Shown in pieces: positions 13,675-18,750 of a stretch of DNA of 45,778 nt. The translations under genes and the position numbers were made by a program. Positions within the stretch are counted from its first letter, which is position 1; each line of letters begins with the position of its first letter. The notes below the pieces were generated by a model. That model saw only the letters and a program-made list of their open reading frames with translations, did no database searches and was not told the origin of the DNA. The DNA is from an uncultured bacterium (GTDB lineage Bacteria > Cyanobacteriota > Vampirovibrionia > Gastranaerophilales > Gastranaerophilaceae), in contig CACXCI010000061.1 of the NCBI GenBank assembly GCA_902766105.1, positions 1-45,778 on the forward strand. The letters are read 5' to 3'.

Positions 13675-13786
13675 ACCAAAAGAACAAACAACTCAAAACG
13701 CCCAATAAGTGCATTTTGTACACTTTATACCCAATTCCACTTATTGCAATTGTTTACACCCACTTAATAAAAGTTAACAATAGGGG

Positions 13787-13815
13787 TTGACAAAATTTTT
13801 ATTATAGATTATAGT
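13787..13815 (+). promoter_or_regulatory. Strong sigma-70 promoter of the small gene at 13873
   Basis: Perfect TTGACA (13787-13792), a 17-base spacer and TATAGT (13810-13815). It is the most consensus-like -35 in the window and predicts transcription from about 13822, giving a 50-base leader. Confidence 0.75.
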
Positions 13816-13829
13816 AAAAATGTTAGATG

Positions 13830-13848
13830 AAGTGTTCAAATAACACTT
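13830..13848 (+). promoter_or_regulatory. 5'-leader hairpin before the small gene
   Basis: A perfect 7-base stem AAGTGTT-CAAAT-AACACTT placed 8-26 bases into the predicted mRNA. It precedes AGGAGG (13861-13866) without covering it, so it may stabilise the 5' end of the message. Confidence 0.5.
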
Positions 13849-13872
13849 AATAACAAACAAAGGAGGTTAATT

Positions 13873-14175
13873 ATGTTAACAATCAATCCAATTAACTTAA
13901 ATACATACAGTAAAAAATATATATCATTTGGTGAAAACCAAAATTATAATAACAATAATAATAAAATTGGTGTTATGTCATTAGACAAAAAACCAAATAC
14001 TAAAATAAATTTTGAGAAAGATATGTTTGAAGCTAAAAATGCTGATATGGTTCAAACAAACCCTATTAAAGCATTAGGCTACAACTTTGTTAAGGCTTAT
14101 AATACACTTGTTACCCCAACAAGAAAAAATAATAAAACCGAATCAACATACATTCACATGCCATATATGGCATAG
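13873..14175 (+). CDS. Small, probably highly expressed protein of unknown function
   Basis: 100 residues with no known domain. It is polar and Asn/Lys-rich, with no signal peptide or membrane segment. It starts MLTINPINLNTYSKKYISFGEN and contains a run of Asn (about 27-33). The NPIKALGYNFVKAYNTLVTP segment (about 61-80) could form an amphipathic helix. The ISFGE near residue 22 resembles the N-terminal F-x-G signature of the proteins at 15542, 16189 and 44608. It is a monocistronic unit with a near-consensus promoter, a leader hairpin, a full AGGAGG Shine-Dalgarno seven bases before ATG and a clean terminator. That architecture suggests abundant expression. Function is unknown. Confidence 0.82.
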   Translation: MLTINPINLNTYSKKYISFGENQNYNNNNNKIGVMSLDKKPNTKINFEKDMFEAKNADMVQTNPIKALGYNFVKAYNTLVTPTRKNNKTESTYIHMPYMA

Positions 14176-14263
14176 TGAAATCATTTGAAAGACTTAACTC
14201 TTTTCATTTACCCTACAAAACCAGTGCAGTTTACCCCAATTGCAATGGTTTTTATTTTAGAAG

Positions 14264-14294
14264 CGACTCTTAACAAAGAGTCGGTTTTTATTTT
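14264..14294 (+). terminator. Rho-independent terminator of the small gene
   Basis: An 8-base stem CGACTCTT-AACA-AAGAGTCG followed by a T-rich run (14285-14294). It ends the monocistronic 13873 unit and separates it from the kinase gene. Confidence 0.85.
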
Positions 14295-14353: not shown

Positions 14354-15211
14354 GTGAATATTTATTACACTATATCAACGTTTTTACTCCTTTTGATGGC
14401 AATATATTTGTTTTGTCAAAACAGGCATCTTGCGAAAAATTTACGTTTTGTACGAGAGATTGAAAATAACCAGCAGGCTTTTGTTGCAACAGTTGTACAT
14501 GATCTCAAAACCCCGACAAATGCACAAATAAATTCCCTAAACCTTTTAAAAAACGAGGCTTTTGGTAAGTTGAATTCTGAGCAGCAGGAGATTATATCCT
14601 TGACTCAAGAATCTTGTAAATACATGTCAAATCTTATTGGAACTATTATGGAAACTTACAGGAACGATTTGGGGAAAATTCCTCTCAATAAATCAGAATT
14701 TGATATTATCAAATTAATTAGAGCAATATGTGAAGAAACAAAGGTTTTGGCAGCCAAAAAGAACCAAATTTTAAATTTTGATTATACCGGTTTGCCAATA
14801 AGCATTTATGCTGACAGGTTACAAATAATGCGTGTTATTCAAAATTTACTTTCAAATGCCATAACGTACGGTTTTTGTGATACAGAAATTGTGGTAAGTA
14901 TAGAAAATTCCCACAATAATTTGTCATTTTATGTCCAAAATCAAAGTAATGAAATTCCATCAGGAGAGCTTGCTACAGTTTTTGACAAGTTTAAAAAGAC
15001 AAAATATGCCAACATAAACAGTTCAGGAACAGGTTTGGGTTTGTATTTGGCAAAGCAGATAATTGAGAGTCATAACGGTAAAATGTTTGCAGAAAGTAAT
15101 AAAGACGGAATTTGTTGTTTTGGTTTCTGTATACCACAAAAAGCAAATTTAAAGGCAACTAAATATACTGTTAAAGAGGTAAATAAAGATAACTTTTCGA
15201 AAATTAATTAA
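14354..15211 (+). CDS. Orphan membrane-anchored sensor histidine kinase
   Basis: 285 residues from GTG 14354. One N-terminal membrane segment (about 5-22) is followed directly by the transmitter, with no periplasmic or PAS sensor. The H-box is VVHDLKTP with H49. The N-box is QNLLSNAITYG with N168. The glycine-rich G2 box is SSGTGLGLYLAKQII (about 223-237). The G1 box is weak (VQNQSNEIP), lacking a standard DxGxG. The kinase core is therefore intact, unlike the kinase-like protein at 43314. No response regulator is in the window. The GTG lies 7 bases after a possible -10 TAAAAT, so it may be another leaderless gene. Its stop overlaps the stop of the convergent small gene by four bases. Confidence 0.88.
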   Translation: MNIYYTISTFLLLLMAIYLFCQNRHLAKNLRFVREIENNQQAFVATVVHDLKTPTNAQINSLNLLKNEAFGKLNSEQQEIISLTQESCKYMSNLIGTIMETYRNDLGKIPLNKSEFDIIKLIRAICEETKVLAAKKNQILNFDYTGLPISIYADRLQIMRVIQNLLSNAITYGFCDTEIVVSIENSHNNLSFYVQNQSNEIPSGELATVFDKFKKTKYANINSSGTGLGLYLAKQIIESHNGKMFAESNKDGICCFGFCIPQKANLKATKYTVKEVNKDNFSKIN

Positions 15212-15441
15212 GCAATCAGAGATAAATACTTACGGCTTTCATCCTGTTTATCATTTGAAAACAAGGATTTACAGTTATCCAAAAAACGGGTAAAATAACT
15301 CTCATTTTCTTTTATACGGCCTTCATTAATATGTCCAAAACCTTCGTTTAAGTTAACTTTAGAAGATTGATTATTTACTACATAATCCCTGTGAGCCATA
15401 TTTGTTAGCGGATTAAAATACCCTATTGATGAAACCAGCAT
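15208..15441 (-). CDS. Small protein of unknown function
   Basis: 77 residues with no recognised domain. It begins MLVSSIGYFNPLTNMAHRDY and is charged and polar afterward, with an ENESYFTRFLDNCKSLF helix-like stretch. ATG 15441 is preceded by GGGGTAA about nine bases upstream, a poor Shine-Dalgarno. It converges on the histidine kinase gene with a four-base overlap of stop codons. The coding status rests on start, composition and its place among similar small genes, and is only moderately sure. Confidence 0.5.
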   Translation of the reverse strand: MLVSSIGYFNPLTNMAHRDYVVNNQSSKVNLNEGFGHINEGRIKENESYFTRFLDNCKSLFSNDKQDESRKYLSLIA

Positions 15442-15541: not shown

Positions 15542-16186
15542 ATGAAAATAACAACTCAATCACAATACCCCCAATATCGTATAACTCCTCAATTTAAAGG
15601 TTTGTTAACCTCAAAGTGTGCGAATCTTAACATATATAAAATAGAGGATAATTTTGATTTAAAATTTGTTAAGGATTTAGAAGGAAAAATTAATTTTGAA
15701 TCTTTAATGCCCGGGTTGTCTAAATCTCAGTATTCAAGATGGCATGAAATGCTAGAATATGCGGTATATAATGCTTCAAATCCGAATAATATAACATATA
15801 TTGCAACATCCAATAACAAAGTATGTGGAATAATAACATATTTTCCTGATAAAACGACCTCATTGGATTGTATTTGTACCTGGCCTGTTGAGGTTGGTAA
15901 AAAGGTAAAATTTGGCGGCAAGGCGTTATTTCGTCAAGTATTTGAGGATTTTTTCAAACAAAATGGTACAAGAATGAAATTAGAAGCAATAACAAACGGA
16001 CCATTTGACACTATATCAAAATATGAGCCTTTGGGTTTTCATACGACATCTGATATTTATCCGACAAAAGTTGTCATGGAAGCAAACAAATACAAAATAA
16101 AAGAAAGTCTAGATTTTTTGAACGGGTTATTACATTATAAAAAAGTACCCCCCAAAAAAGTGAATTTACGTGAATTAGAAATATAA
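15542..16186 (+). CDS. GNAT-like acetyltransferase with N-terminal F-x-G signature
   Basis: 214 residues. Residues 1-22 form a polar leader ending in ITPQFKG. From about residue 85 the pattern fits a GNAT fold: ITYIATSNNKVCGIITYFPD (beta2-beta4), then VGKKVKFGGKALFRQVFEDFFKQNG, where the first part would be the acetyl-CoA pyrophosphate loop and helix. MKLEAITNGPFDTISKYEPLGFH is the usual C-terminal strand-helix-LGF ending. The acceptor substrate is unknown. The next gene starts three bases after its stop, so the two are co-transcribed and probably translationally coupled. No clear Shine-Dalgarno precedes ATG 15542. Confidence 0.65.
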   Translation: MKITTQSQYPQYRITPQFKGLLTSKCANLNIYKIEDNFDLKFVKDLEGKINFESLMPGLSKSQYSRWHEMLEYAVYNASNPNNITYIATSNNKVCGIITYFPDKTTSLDCICTWPVEVGKKVKFGGKALFRQVFEDFFKQNGTRMKLEAITNGPFDTISKYEPLGFHTTSDIYPTKVVMEANKYKIKESLDFLNGLLHYKKVPPKKVNLRELEI

Positions 16187-16188
16187 AT

Positions 16189-16695
16189 ATGCAAGTATCA
16201 TTTCAAGGAATAAATAATCTTTCGATTGTGAATACCAAATATAAAACAGACGGTCTGTACAAGGCGATAAACGGTCAGGTTAAGCATGGAAACATGAACT
16301 ACAGCAGTTATAATTTAAAATGCCGTTTAACCAACGATACAGATGGCGATGACTTGCAGTATTTTCATGATCAACTTGCAAAATGTCGTATGTGTTATCA
16401 AGTTAATTGTTTGGATATGAAAAATCCGGATATCGTTGATATTGCTATGGTAAAAAGAAGCGCTGCGGATAGCAAAGAGGATAATTTCATATTTTCAATA
16501 AGAGATTATGTAATAATGCTTGATGAATTTCAGGTGTTGCCGCTTGTTGATTTTATTGCAAAAATTACCAAAAAAATTTCACAAAAATCTGACATTTCCA
16601 AAAAGGACAGATTGATTGCACAATTTATGAATGAGTCTATAGCGCAAAAGGCAAAGAGTTTTATTGAAAAAGGCGAAAATGGACATCTGAATTAA
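16189..16695 (+). CDS. Hypothetical protein with N-terminal VSFQG signature
   Basis: 168 residues, no known family. It opens MQVSFQGINNLSIVNTKYKT, with the F-x-G signature at residues 4-7. The middle part contains three cysteines (CRMCYQVNC, about 70-80), a possible metal-binding or structural cluster. A hydrophobic/charged helical C-terminus follows. It begins three bases after the GNAT-like gene and runs to within one base of the ruvA stop, so the region is very compact. Function is unknown, but pairing with an acetyltransferase suggests a partner or substrate role; this is inference. Confidence 0.7.
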   Translation: MQVSFQGINNLSIVNTKYKTDGLYKAINGQVKHGNMNYSSYNLKCRLTNDTDGDDLQYFHDQLAKCRMCYQVNCLDMKNPDIVDIAMVKRSAADSKEDNFIFSIRDYVIMLDEFQVLPLVDFIAKITKKISQKSDISKKDRLIAQFMNESIAQKAKSFIEKGENGHLN

Positions 16696-17325: not shown

Positions 17326-18750
17326 CTACTCCTTAAATGTTGTTTTTATTTCGTCAATAATATTTTGCAGTTCGTTATCAACTTTTAATTTATCAACCAC
17401 CATATCGCAGGAATACATAATTGTGGAGTGTTTTTTGGCAAAATATTCTCCGATTGATTCATAACTCATTCCCAAAACATCTCTGGCAAGATAAATGGCG
17501 ATATGACGAGCTTTTGCAATTTTTTGCTGACGTGCGGTACTTTTTAATTCTTTCAGAGTTAAGCTATAGTAATTTGCAACAGATTGAGCGATTTTGTCTA
17601 TGGTCAAATCTCTTTTACGAACCTCACAATTAAGAGCTTTTTGTGCGGTTTCTATTGTAATTCCCTGATTAAAAAATTCTGCGTATGCGCTAACTTTGTT
17701 GAATGCGCCTTTAAGCTCACGAACATTGTTTACAAAGTTATCCGCAATATATTCAAAGACATCTTCTTCGGCCTCAACTCCTAGACTGGCAGCATAAGCT
17801 TTTACGATTTCAACCCTTGTTTCAAAAGCCGGAGGTTTAATATCAACAACCAAACCTGTTTCAAAACGGGTTCTCAGACGATTATCAAGCTTTGGTATAT
17901 CTGCAGGCAATCTGTCTGATGCTATTACGATTTGCTTGTTGTTTGTGTATAAAGCCTCAAAAGTTGAGAAAAATTCTTTCATTGTACCGCTTTTTGATTC
18001 AATAAACTGAATATCATCCATAAGTAAGATATCAATATTTTGAAATTTCTGATGGAATTTTCTCATCATTGTGTTATTTGTGTCTGTTGAACGTTTTTTG
18101 TCAGGTGTTGAATTGTATTGAAAGCATTTTACCCATTCGTTAAAATATTCTTCCATACGAATATAACGCACTCTCAATTGAGGTTTGTTAAAAATAATAT
18201 AATGCCCGATTGCTTGCAGGAGGTGAGTCTTTCCTAAACCGGATGCGCCATATATAAACAGCGGATTAAACTTTTTAGCAGGATTGTTTGCAACTGAAAA
18301 TGCCGCATTATAAGCAAAACTTGAATTATCACCGACAACAAAATTTTCAAATTTCAAATTAAGATTCAAATTTGCACTCGATTGCATTTGTGCCAAAGAT
18401 TTTTTTGCATCCTGCTCTTGTTTTTCTTCTTCGGTTTGCCCTGCAATTTGTTTTGATAATTCTGTTTTGCGTGCTTTTATATATTTTTTTGCATAATCAG
18501 GGTCATAAGTAAGAGAAAAAGTTGCACTTTCTCCCAAAACCGACCTTACGGATTCTTTGATTTTTTCAGTCCAGCCTTTTTTTATAATGTCTATTGCCAT
18601 AGGATGAGGGGATAACAAGACAAGCGTATTGTTTTCACAGTCTGCCGCCTCAAGAGGTTTAACCCAAGTATTAAAAACATGCTCAGGCAAATTTGCCTCA
18701 AGCTCGCATTTAACCTTGTTCCATACTTCTTTAACCTCAACAATATCCAT
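17326..18750 (-). CDS. dnaA: Chromosomal replication initiator DnaA
   Basis: 474 residues, normal length. Domain I (1-85) starts with the typical WNKVKCELEANLPEHVFNTWVKPL. Domain II is a short Glu/Lys/Gln linker (about 90-130). The AAA+ domain III has Walker A GASGLGKT (168-175), Walker B with ILLMDDIQFIE and sensor motifs near NRLRTRFETGL. Domain IV carries the DNA-binding signature YESIGEYFAKKHSTIMYSC. Usual partners dnaN, recF or gyrB are absent; ruvA follows instead. No cluster of DnaA boxes was found on either side, so the origin is probably elsewhere. Confidence 0.97.
   Translation of the reverse strand: MDIVEVKEVWNKVKCELEANLPEHVFNTWVKPLEAADCENNTLVLLSPHPMAIDIIKKGWTEKIKESVRSVLGESATFSLTYDPDYAKKYIKARKTELSKQIAGQTEEEKQEQDAKKSLAQMQSSANLNLNLKFENFVVGDNSSFAYNAAFSVANNPAKKFNPLFIYGASGLGKTHLLQAIGHYIIFNKPQLRVRYIRMEEYFNEWVKCFQYNSTPDKKRSTDTNNTMMRKFHQKFQNIDILLMDDIQFIESKSGTMKEFFSTFEALYTNNKQIVIASDRLPADIPKLDNRLRTRFETGLVVDIKPPAFETRVEIVKAYAASLGVEAEEDVFEYIADNFVNNVRELKGAFNKVSAYAEFFNQGITIETAQKALNCEVRKRDLTIDKIAQSVANYYSLTLKELKSTARQQKIAKARHIAIYLARDVLGMSYESIGEYFAKKHSTIMYSCDMVVDKLKVDNELQNIIDEIKTTFKE

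Follow-up and report, generated by a model that had tools for sequence, protein, structure and literature searches.

Looped repression through paired operators is known from LacI, which uses O1 and O3, and from GalR, which uses OE and OI. The locus described here is alike in having two dyads, one in the start region and one upstream of it, that lie about 120 bp apart and flank a sigma-70 promoter; we call the upstream dyad O1 and the downstream dyad O2. It differs in its half-site (ATNAAGTG), in its 9-bp spacer, in being family-wide and apparently single-target, and in being known here from its sites alone. Another comparison is with the CIRCE operator of HrcA, a leader dyad with the half-site GCACTC and a spacer of 9 bp. 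The locus shares the 9-bp-spacer dyad in the leader, but its half-site is AAGTG instead of GCACTC and its gene encodes no chaperone. Membership of the CIRCE/HrcA class was rejected, the half-site here being ATNAAGTG and not TTAGCACTC. Cyanobacteria, moreover, have small regulatory proteins, AtpTheta and further ones, and the protein studied here is about twice the length of AtpTheta. As far as the accessible part of the AtpTheta article goes (PMC9241938), that system is alike in combining a small protein, an elaborately regulated promoter and an HLR1-like element. The same part of the article gives HLR1, the RpaB site of cyanobacteria, as two copies of (G/T)TTACA(T/A)(T/A) placed 2 nt apart, and describes the region from -45 to -60 of the atpT promoter as essential (PMC9241938).

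In the window, by which we mean the whole stretch of 45,778 nucleotides that was analysed, O1 occupies positions 13704-13728 (AATAAGTG-N9-CACTTTAT, 25 bp, plus strand) and O2 positions 13827-13851 (ATGAAGTG-N9-CACTTAAT, plus strand). Both 25-bp dyads read ATNAAGTG-N9-CACTTNAT and lie at about -106 (O1) and +18 (O2) from a transcription start predicted near 13822. A previous sequence-only reading of this DNA had described inverted motifs upstream of the promoter and a leader hairpin downstream of it. The first motif, AATAAGTG at 13704, stands, but not its pairing with CACTTATT at 13738, a copy that is not general among relatives: comparison of the dyads across relatives shows that the conserved partner is CACTTTAT at 13721, 9 nt away. 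The dyad behind the leader hairpin also exists, as O2, but it is better read as a DNA operator, the same 25-bp dyad being found upstream of the promoter.

The comparison rests on 63 loci of the family, obtained from 70 matching loci by removing five duplicates and two others, and their upstream sequences are strikingly similar. With no limit placed on spacing, every one of the 63 loci has the O2 core AAGTG-N9-CACTT no further than 110 nt from the ATG, and 58 have a second core in a range of 400 nt, the exceptions being L016, L055, L056, L057 and L069. Two operators of the same sequence are hence found around one promoter in 58/63 loci, and their helical spacing is narrow: the core-to-core distance is 121 bp in one locus, 122 in eight, 123 in 29, 124 in 19 and 130 in one, so that 57 of the 58 two-core loci fall within 121-124 bp. 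When flanking bases are required in both dyads, 49 of the 63 loci retain the pair, and the spacer measures 9 bp in 112/112 flank-matched dyads although 8 to 10 were permitted. In 60 loci the -35 box stands 40 or 41 bp from O2, whereas the distance from O2 to the ATG ranges from 14 to 51 nt (60 loci). Between O1 and the direct repeat discussed below lies a segment whose bases vary almost freely but whose length is fixed. Some relatives carry additional copies, with a further dyad overlapping the -35 box in one genome (G175) and three g15 genomes having half-sites at the -35 and -10 boxes.

It is likely that O1 and O2 are DNA operators and not an RNA hairpin, because the predicted transcript does not include O1 and extra copies occur at the -35 and -10 boxes of some relatives. 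That two dyads bracket the promoter at an almost constant distance suggests a switched promoter and not just a strong one. A fixed spacing is expected of sites that keep helical phase, hence the idea of a repression loop, and we give DNA looping between O1 and O2 about even chances. The spacing could instead reflect contacts with RNA polymerase or with other bound factors, and a strict requirement for looping is weakened by the degenerate O1 of several lineages (g14, g15, g16 and g31) and by the five of 63 loci that have no second core. We found no candidate regulator for O1/O2.

Our overall model, which we hold to be slightly more probable than its negation, is that of a switched, single-target promoter, of predicted high output, that drives a small adaptor or inhibitor protein; it is built by inference from sequences, largely those of metagenome-assembled genomes. 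A dedicated DNA-binding protein would switch transcription of a monocistronic gene: a dimeric or tetrameric repressor would sit on O2, in the start region, and on O1, with a loop of some 123 bp of DNA joining the two. Once repression is lifted, an OmpR-family response regulator bound to the direct repeat would activate the promoter. The product, of some 75-125 amino acids and mostly disordered with two short helices, would then be made in bulk and engage a cellular partner, either as its adaptor or as its inhibitor. The adaptor function, taken by itself, is doubtful. In a lineage known chiefly through metagenome assemblies, a fixed-spacing, single-target operator pair could serve as bait for a new regulator, and it marks the small gene as probably important to physiology.

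The sites look single-target, because in this genome the third of three AAGTG-N9-CACTT copies sits inside an unrelated ORF and the other two are at the locus. A regulon search in eight genomes gave 13 such sites outside the locus versus 21 for the backwards control. Across the order, dyads paired 114-132 bp apart are found in 229/383 genomes, usually once, against 0/383 for the backwards control; these are pattern matches that were read individually in part, and the one in G377 is a different repeat, AAGTGACATTTAGTCACTT. More than one match occurs in G325, G029, G080, G154 and G181. The exact O2 sequence is present in 189/383 genomes, nearly always as a single copy (two in G325 and in G312), the backwards control giving 2. 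When the 149-bp module is turned into a sequence model, 359/383 genomes match it at E<=0.001, a count that includes weak and possibly generic-promoter matches, with no match listed for g19 and g35 genomes. Clusters of TTTACCCC were also seen among eight genomes, several in G079 and G241 and one each in G000, G061 and G027. Repeats of AAGTGACATTTAGTCACTT that are spaced by about 130 bp and have no relation to the module lie at G174:C25:194-469, where they are extra, and at G377:C1:159-302.

The direct repeat just upstream of the -35 box reads TTNACAAAAGTTNACAATAG; in the window it takes the form TTAATAAAAG TTAACAATAG (13764-13783, plus strand), has a 10-bp period, ends 3 bp before the -35 box and is conserved in relatives. 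Judged against the available part of the HLR1 description (PMC9241938), it shares the 10-bp period of two direct repeats, their position immediately upstream of the -35 box, and the setting, a small protein gene of a cyanobacterium (atpT). It differs in sequence, being mostly TTNACAAA as opposed to (G/T)TTACA(T/A)(T/A). Counted from the predicted start it spans about -58 to -39, close to the stretch of about -45 to -60 for activating HLR1 in what that source offers (PMC9241938). The HLR1 sequence is exact in some members (for instance L021) and diverged in the window, where the period matches. Three of the four PF00486 matches in this genome pass the cut-off as OmpR-family regulators, with RpaB orthology among them unassigned. 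A degenerate form of the repeat, TTNAYAAAANTTNAYA, gives 242 matches in eight genomes versus 60 for the backwards control, an excess of about four times pointing to a wider regulon; the matches read elsewhere (up to 30) have no visible shared position relative to a -35 box. HLR1-type activation is a tentative proposal, to which we give somewhat less than an even chance, and the HLR1 assignment is a lead, not proof.

The signals around the gene were largely as the sequence-only reading had described them. The sigma-70-type promoter TTGACA-17-TATAGT is indeed there (13787-13815, plus strand), with its -35 box at 13787-13792, its -10 box at 13810-13815 and a 17-nt spacer between them, and TTGACA lies within 130 nt of the start codon in 61/63 family loci. 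A simple promoter scan by itself would not have gone beyond chance, with 19 promoter-like sites found versus 14.3 expected. The Shine-Dalgarno AAGGAGGT (13860-13867, plus strand), 5 nt before the ATG at 13873, had been called perfect, in contrast to many neighbours that lack one. This is borne out among the 38 window ORFs of at least 100 aa (the small-protein ORF included, picked greedily and with uncurated starts), where it is the only full 8/8 match; 4/38 have a match of at least 6 nt at the called start, and 15/38 have no 4-nt match at any start codon of the first 25 codons. A Shine-Dalgarno of at least 5 nt precedes the gene in 63/63 family loci, where start codons had been picked for the best Shine-Dalgarno. 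The ORF itself (13873-14175, plus strand) has 100 codons, 18 of them for Asn, in keeping with the short Asn-rich protein announced. It is a real gene: over 97 codons it differs from one close relative at 13, 9 and 39 sites in codon positions 1, 2 and 3, and in eight further pairwise comparisons most change likewise falls at position 3. BLAST finds one convincing copy in the genome, the next-best and sole other match having an E-value of 0.16. Downstream, the terminator seen earlier holds, with a stem at 14264-14283 and a T-tract (14264-14294, plus strand), but it is preceded by another terminator-like hairpin in the predicted fold (14218-14251, plus strand), which has UUUACCCC at 14230-14237 and a C-run in its loop. 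The gene reads as monocistronic and self-contained, with strong-looking signals.

This 3' region might have a function of its own. The transcript could be dual, its 3'UTR also serving as a trans-acting or protein-binding RNA through exposed UUUACCCC seeds, a proposal that is compatible with the operator model and that we consider rather unlikely. It draws on the motif TTACCCC, found within 150 nt after the stop in 53/63 family loci versus 4/516 other ORFs, and a related copy of which (UUUACCC, 14207-14213, plus strand) is unpaired in the predicted fold of the window transcript. The UUUACCCC C-run falls in the loop of the terminator-like hairpin in six of the seven versions folded, the window included, with only the L012 version folding differently; the predicted fold of the whole transcript has a z of -6.0, and a neighbouring ORF (start 15441, minus strand) carries GGGGTAAA just upstream of its ATG. 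Against it, TTACCC is absent in 9/63 loci, including the g14 loci L054-L057 and L069, and, judged by eye, the sites listed do not show GGGGTAA to be generally enriched ahead of start codons. The neighbouring ORF (15208-15441, minus strand) encodes 77 aa ending in SLIA, and the GGGGTAAA before its ATG is the complement of the 3'UTR motif UUUACCCC.

The coding sequence is conserved in Gastranaerophilales, where the sequence-only reading had suggested a homologue search: BLAST matches the protein in 216/383 genomes and 20/52 genera of the order. It is matched in 66 public loci too, whose organism-bearing titles are mostly Candidatus Melainabacteria or Gastranaerophilales, along with one Cyanobacteria bacterium and one Fusobacterium sp. 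CAG:439. The control region can be traced even where the protein escapes BLAST. Downstream of O2 there is a small ORF even in genomes for which the protein search gave little or nothing (G111, G331, G085, G138, G262, G292, G137 and G198), in 20 further stretches, a few of which (for example in g3 and g14) had BLAST protein matches too, and in 30 loci of genus g20 (L316 of G125 among them). The presence of an ORF is no proof by itself, because an ORF of 60-130 aa also starts within 150 nt of 420/2000 random points in the same stretches, and protein resemblance weighs more. The g20-type protein (MKINSIN...SFKHTAVPYPEY...LLSVLA) looks unrelated to that of the window, and a g25 member resembles both, by E-values that were computed in a 17-sequence set without composition correction and that rank similarity only. 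A single fast-evolving protein family is the likelier account, and replacement of the ORF in some lineages, which may also have occurred, ranks below it. As a rule it is the coding sequence that stays recognisable over longer distances than its promoter. In this case the opposite seems to hold over many genera, the switch having apparently changed far less than the protein.

This asymmetry bears on two rival readings. In one of them, which we find unlikely, the small protein has an ordinary housekeeping role and is made constitutively from a strong promoter, and the dyads are minor modulators. The near-consensus promoter, the full Shine-Dalgarno and the presence in many family genomes would be explained in this manner, but not the persistence of two dyads and their spacing where BLAST no longer recognises the protein. 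In the other, the small protein is its own repressor, binding O1/O2 and holding its own level constant. Single-target-looking sites before this kind of gene in the loci read would fit autoregulation, as would the two short helices, which are predicted with low confidence. However, the dyad core is kept while the protein diverges past BLAST recognition between genera, when a protein that binds DNA would be expected to conserve its binding surface above all; a repressor family is hinted at by a single weak PHROG match, at E 7.5e-4 to positions 111-184 of the 202 in a model labelled transcriptional repressor, which 3/13 members match at E<=1. That the operator core persists and the protein does not makes autoregulation the less likely mechanism, and we regard it as quite improbable. 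The weakest proposal, that the downstream dyad is an RNA leader hairpin acting as mRNA stabiliser or translational switch, was set aside as very improbable: O2 does fall in the 5'UTR as predicted, and folding of the transcript predicts it to be paired, but O1 is untranscribed, the dyad is repeated upstream of the promoter in 58/63 loci, extra copies occur at the promoter in some relatives, and no compensatory change is seen in 14 dyad pairs across 61 sequences, a weak result in that 7/14 pairs are invariant and about one such change is expected from shuffles, the rows having been chosen for TTGAC and [AT]AGTG-N9-CACTT (one of 62 loci dropped), which makes those columns invariant by construction.

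Returning to the paired operators as a switch, a bolder version would make it lineage-defining: most family members would keep one promoter per genome with its own paired dyad, read by a single-target DNA-looping regulator, while the small protein would be nearly free to diverge and the transcript would also be a regulatory RNA through its UUUACCCC seeds. We think this conjunction improbable; if it were true, what is conserved in function might reside in the control region and the RNA no less than in the protein.

The protein itself has no assigned family, as had been anticipated: no match in Pfam, NCBIfam or PHROGs (13 members scanned) either exceeded the curated cut-off or recurred in the majority of members, and PDB sequences gave no convincing match, a single one appearing at E 0.021. 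Among viral contigs, 122 stretches matched a pattern and none was confirmed as a relative; an Rfam scan of the window had no match, and no title among the literature matches listed concerned this gene or the dyad site. A typical member begins MITINPVKLN...ISFGEGN, continues with a conserved NAKINFE.DL....ADMVQ and has a second helix near KAL..K..KAYNIL. AlphaFold2, run with 50 sequences, places helices at 47-62 and 64-79 and leaves the remainder at low confidence, so that the protein is predicted to be mostly disordered with two short helices; the mean pLDDT of 57 is too low for a fold search. The C-terminal residue is A or G in 39/40 members of the longer loci versus 52/629 other ORFs, a rule that most of the seven g13/g23 stretches read break. 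In one locus (L240, G137:C1, ~587 kb) that has no AAGTG-N9-CACTT, a different small protein has family-like N- and C-terminal features and ends in LYLIG.

Unrelated proteins of the window (15542-16186 and 16189-16695), and others in L034, L059 and L062, start with a stretch that ends in an S/P-F-K/G/Q-G-like motif. Such a start is common to the small-protein family too and is perhaps a lineage-wide N-terminal tag. Among 164 dereplicated proteins, one F-K/G pattern occurs in eight within the first 25-residue bin versus 0-5 in later ones, whereas the simpler F[KRGQ]G pattern has no N-terminal excess (5, 1, 4, 2, 3 and 6 per bin); the excess is pattern-dependent and weak.

The neighbours of the small-protein gene vary between lineages, and because they do, gene context does not reveal its function. 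A dnaA-like ORF, recognised by eye, lies about 3 kb downstream in the window (17326-18750, minus strand) and does not cluster with the gene's neighbours in other loci. A gene resembling a rhodanese domain, again by eye, is found downstream in 21/40 longer loci, the window being counted among those examined and having none itself; the Shine-Dalgarno of this rhodanese-like gene (AAAGGAT) often lies within a hairpin, ATCCTTTC...GAAAGGAT.
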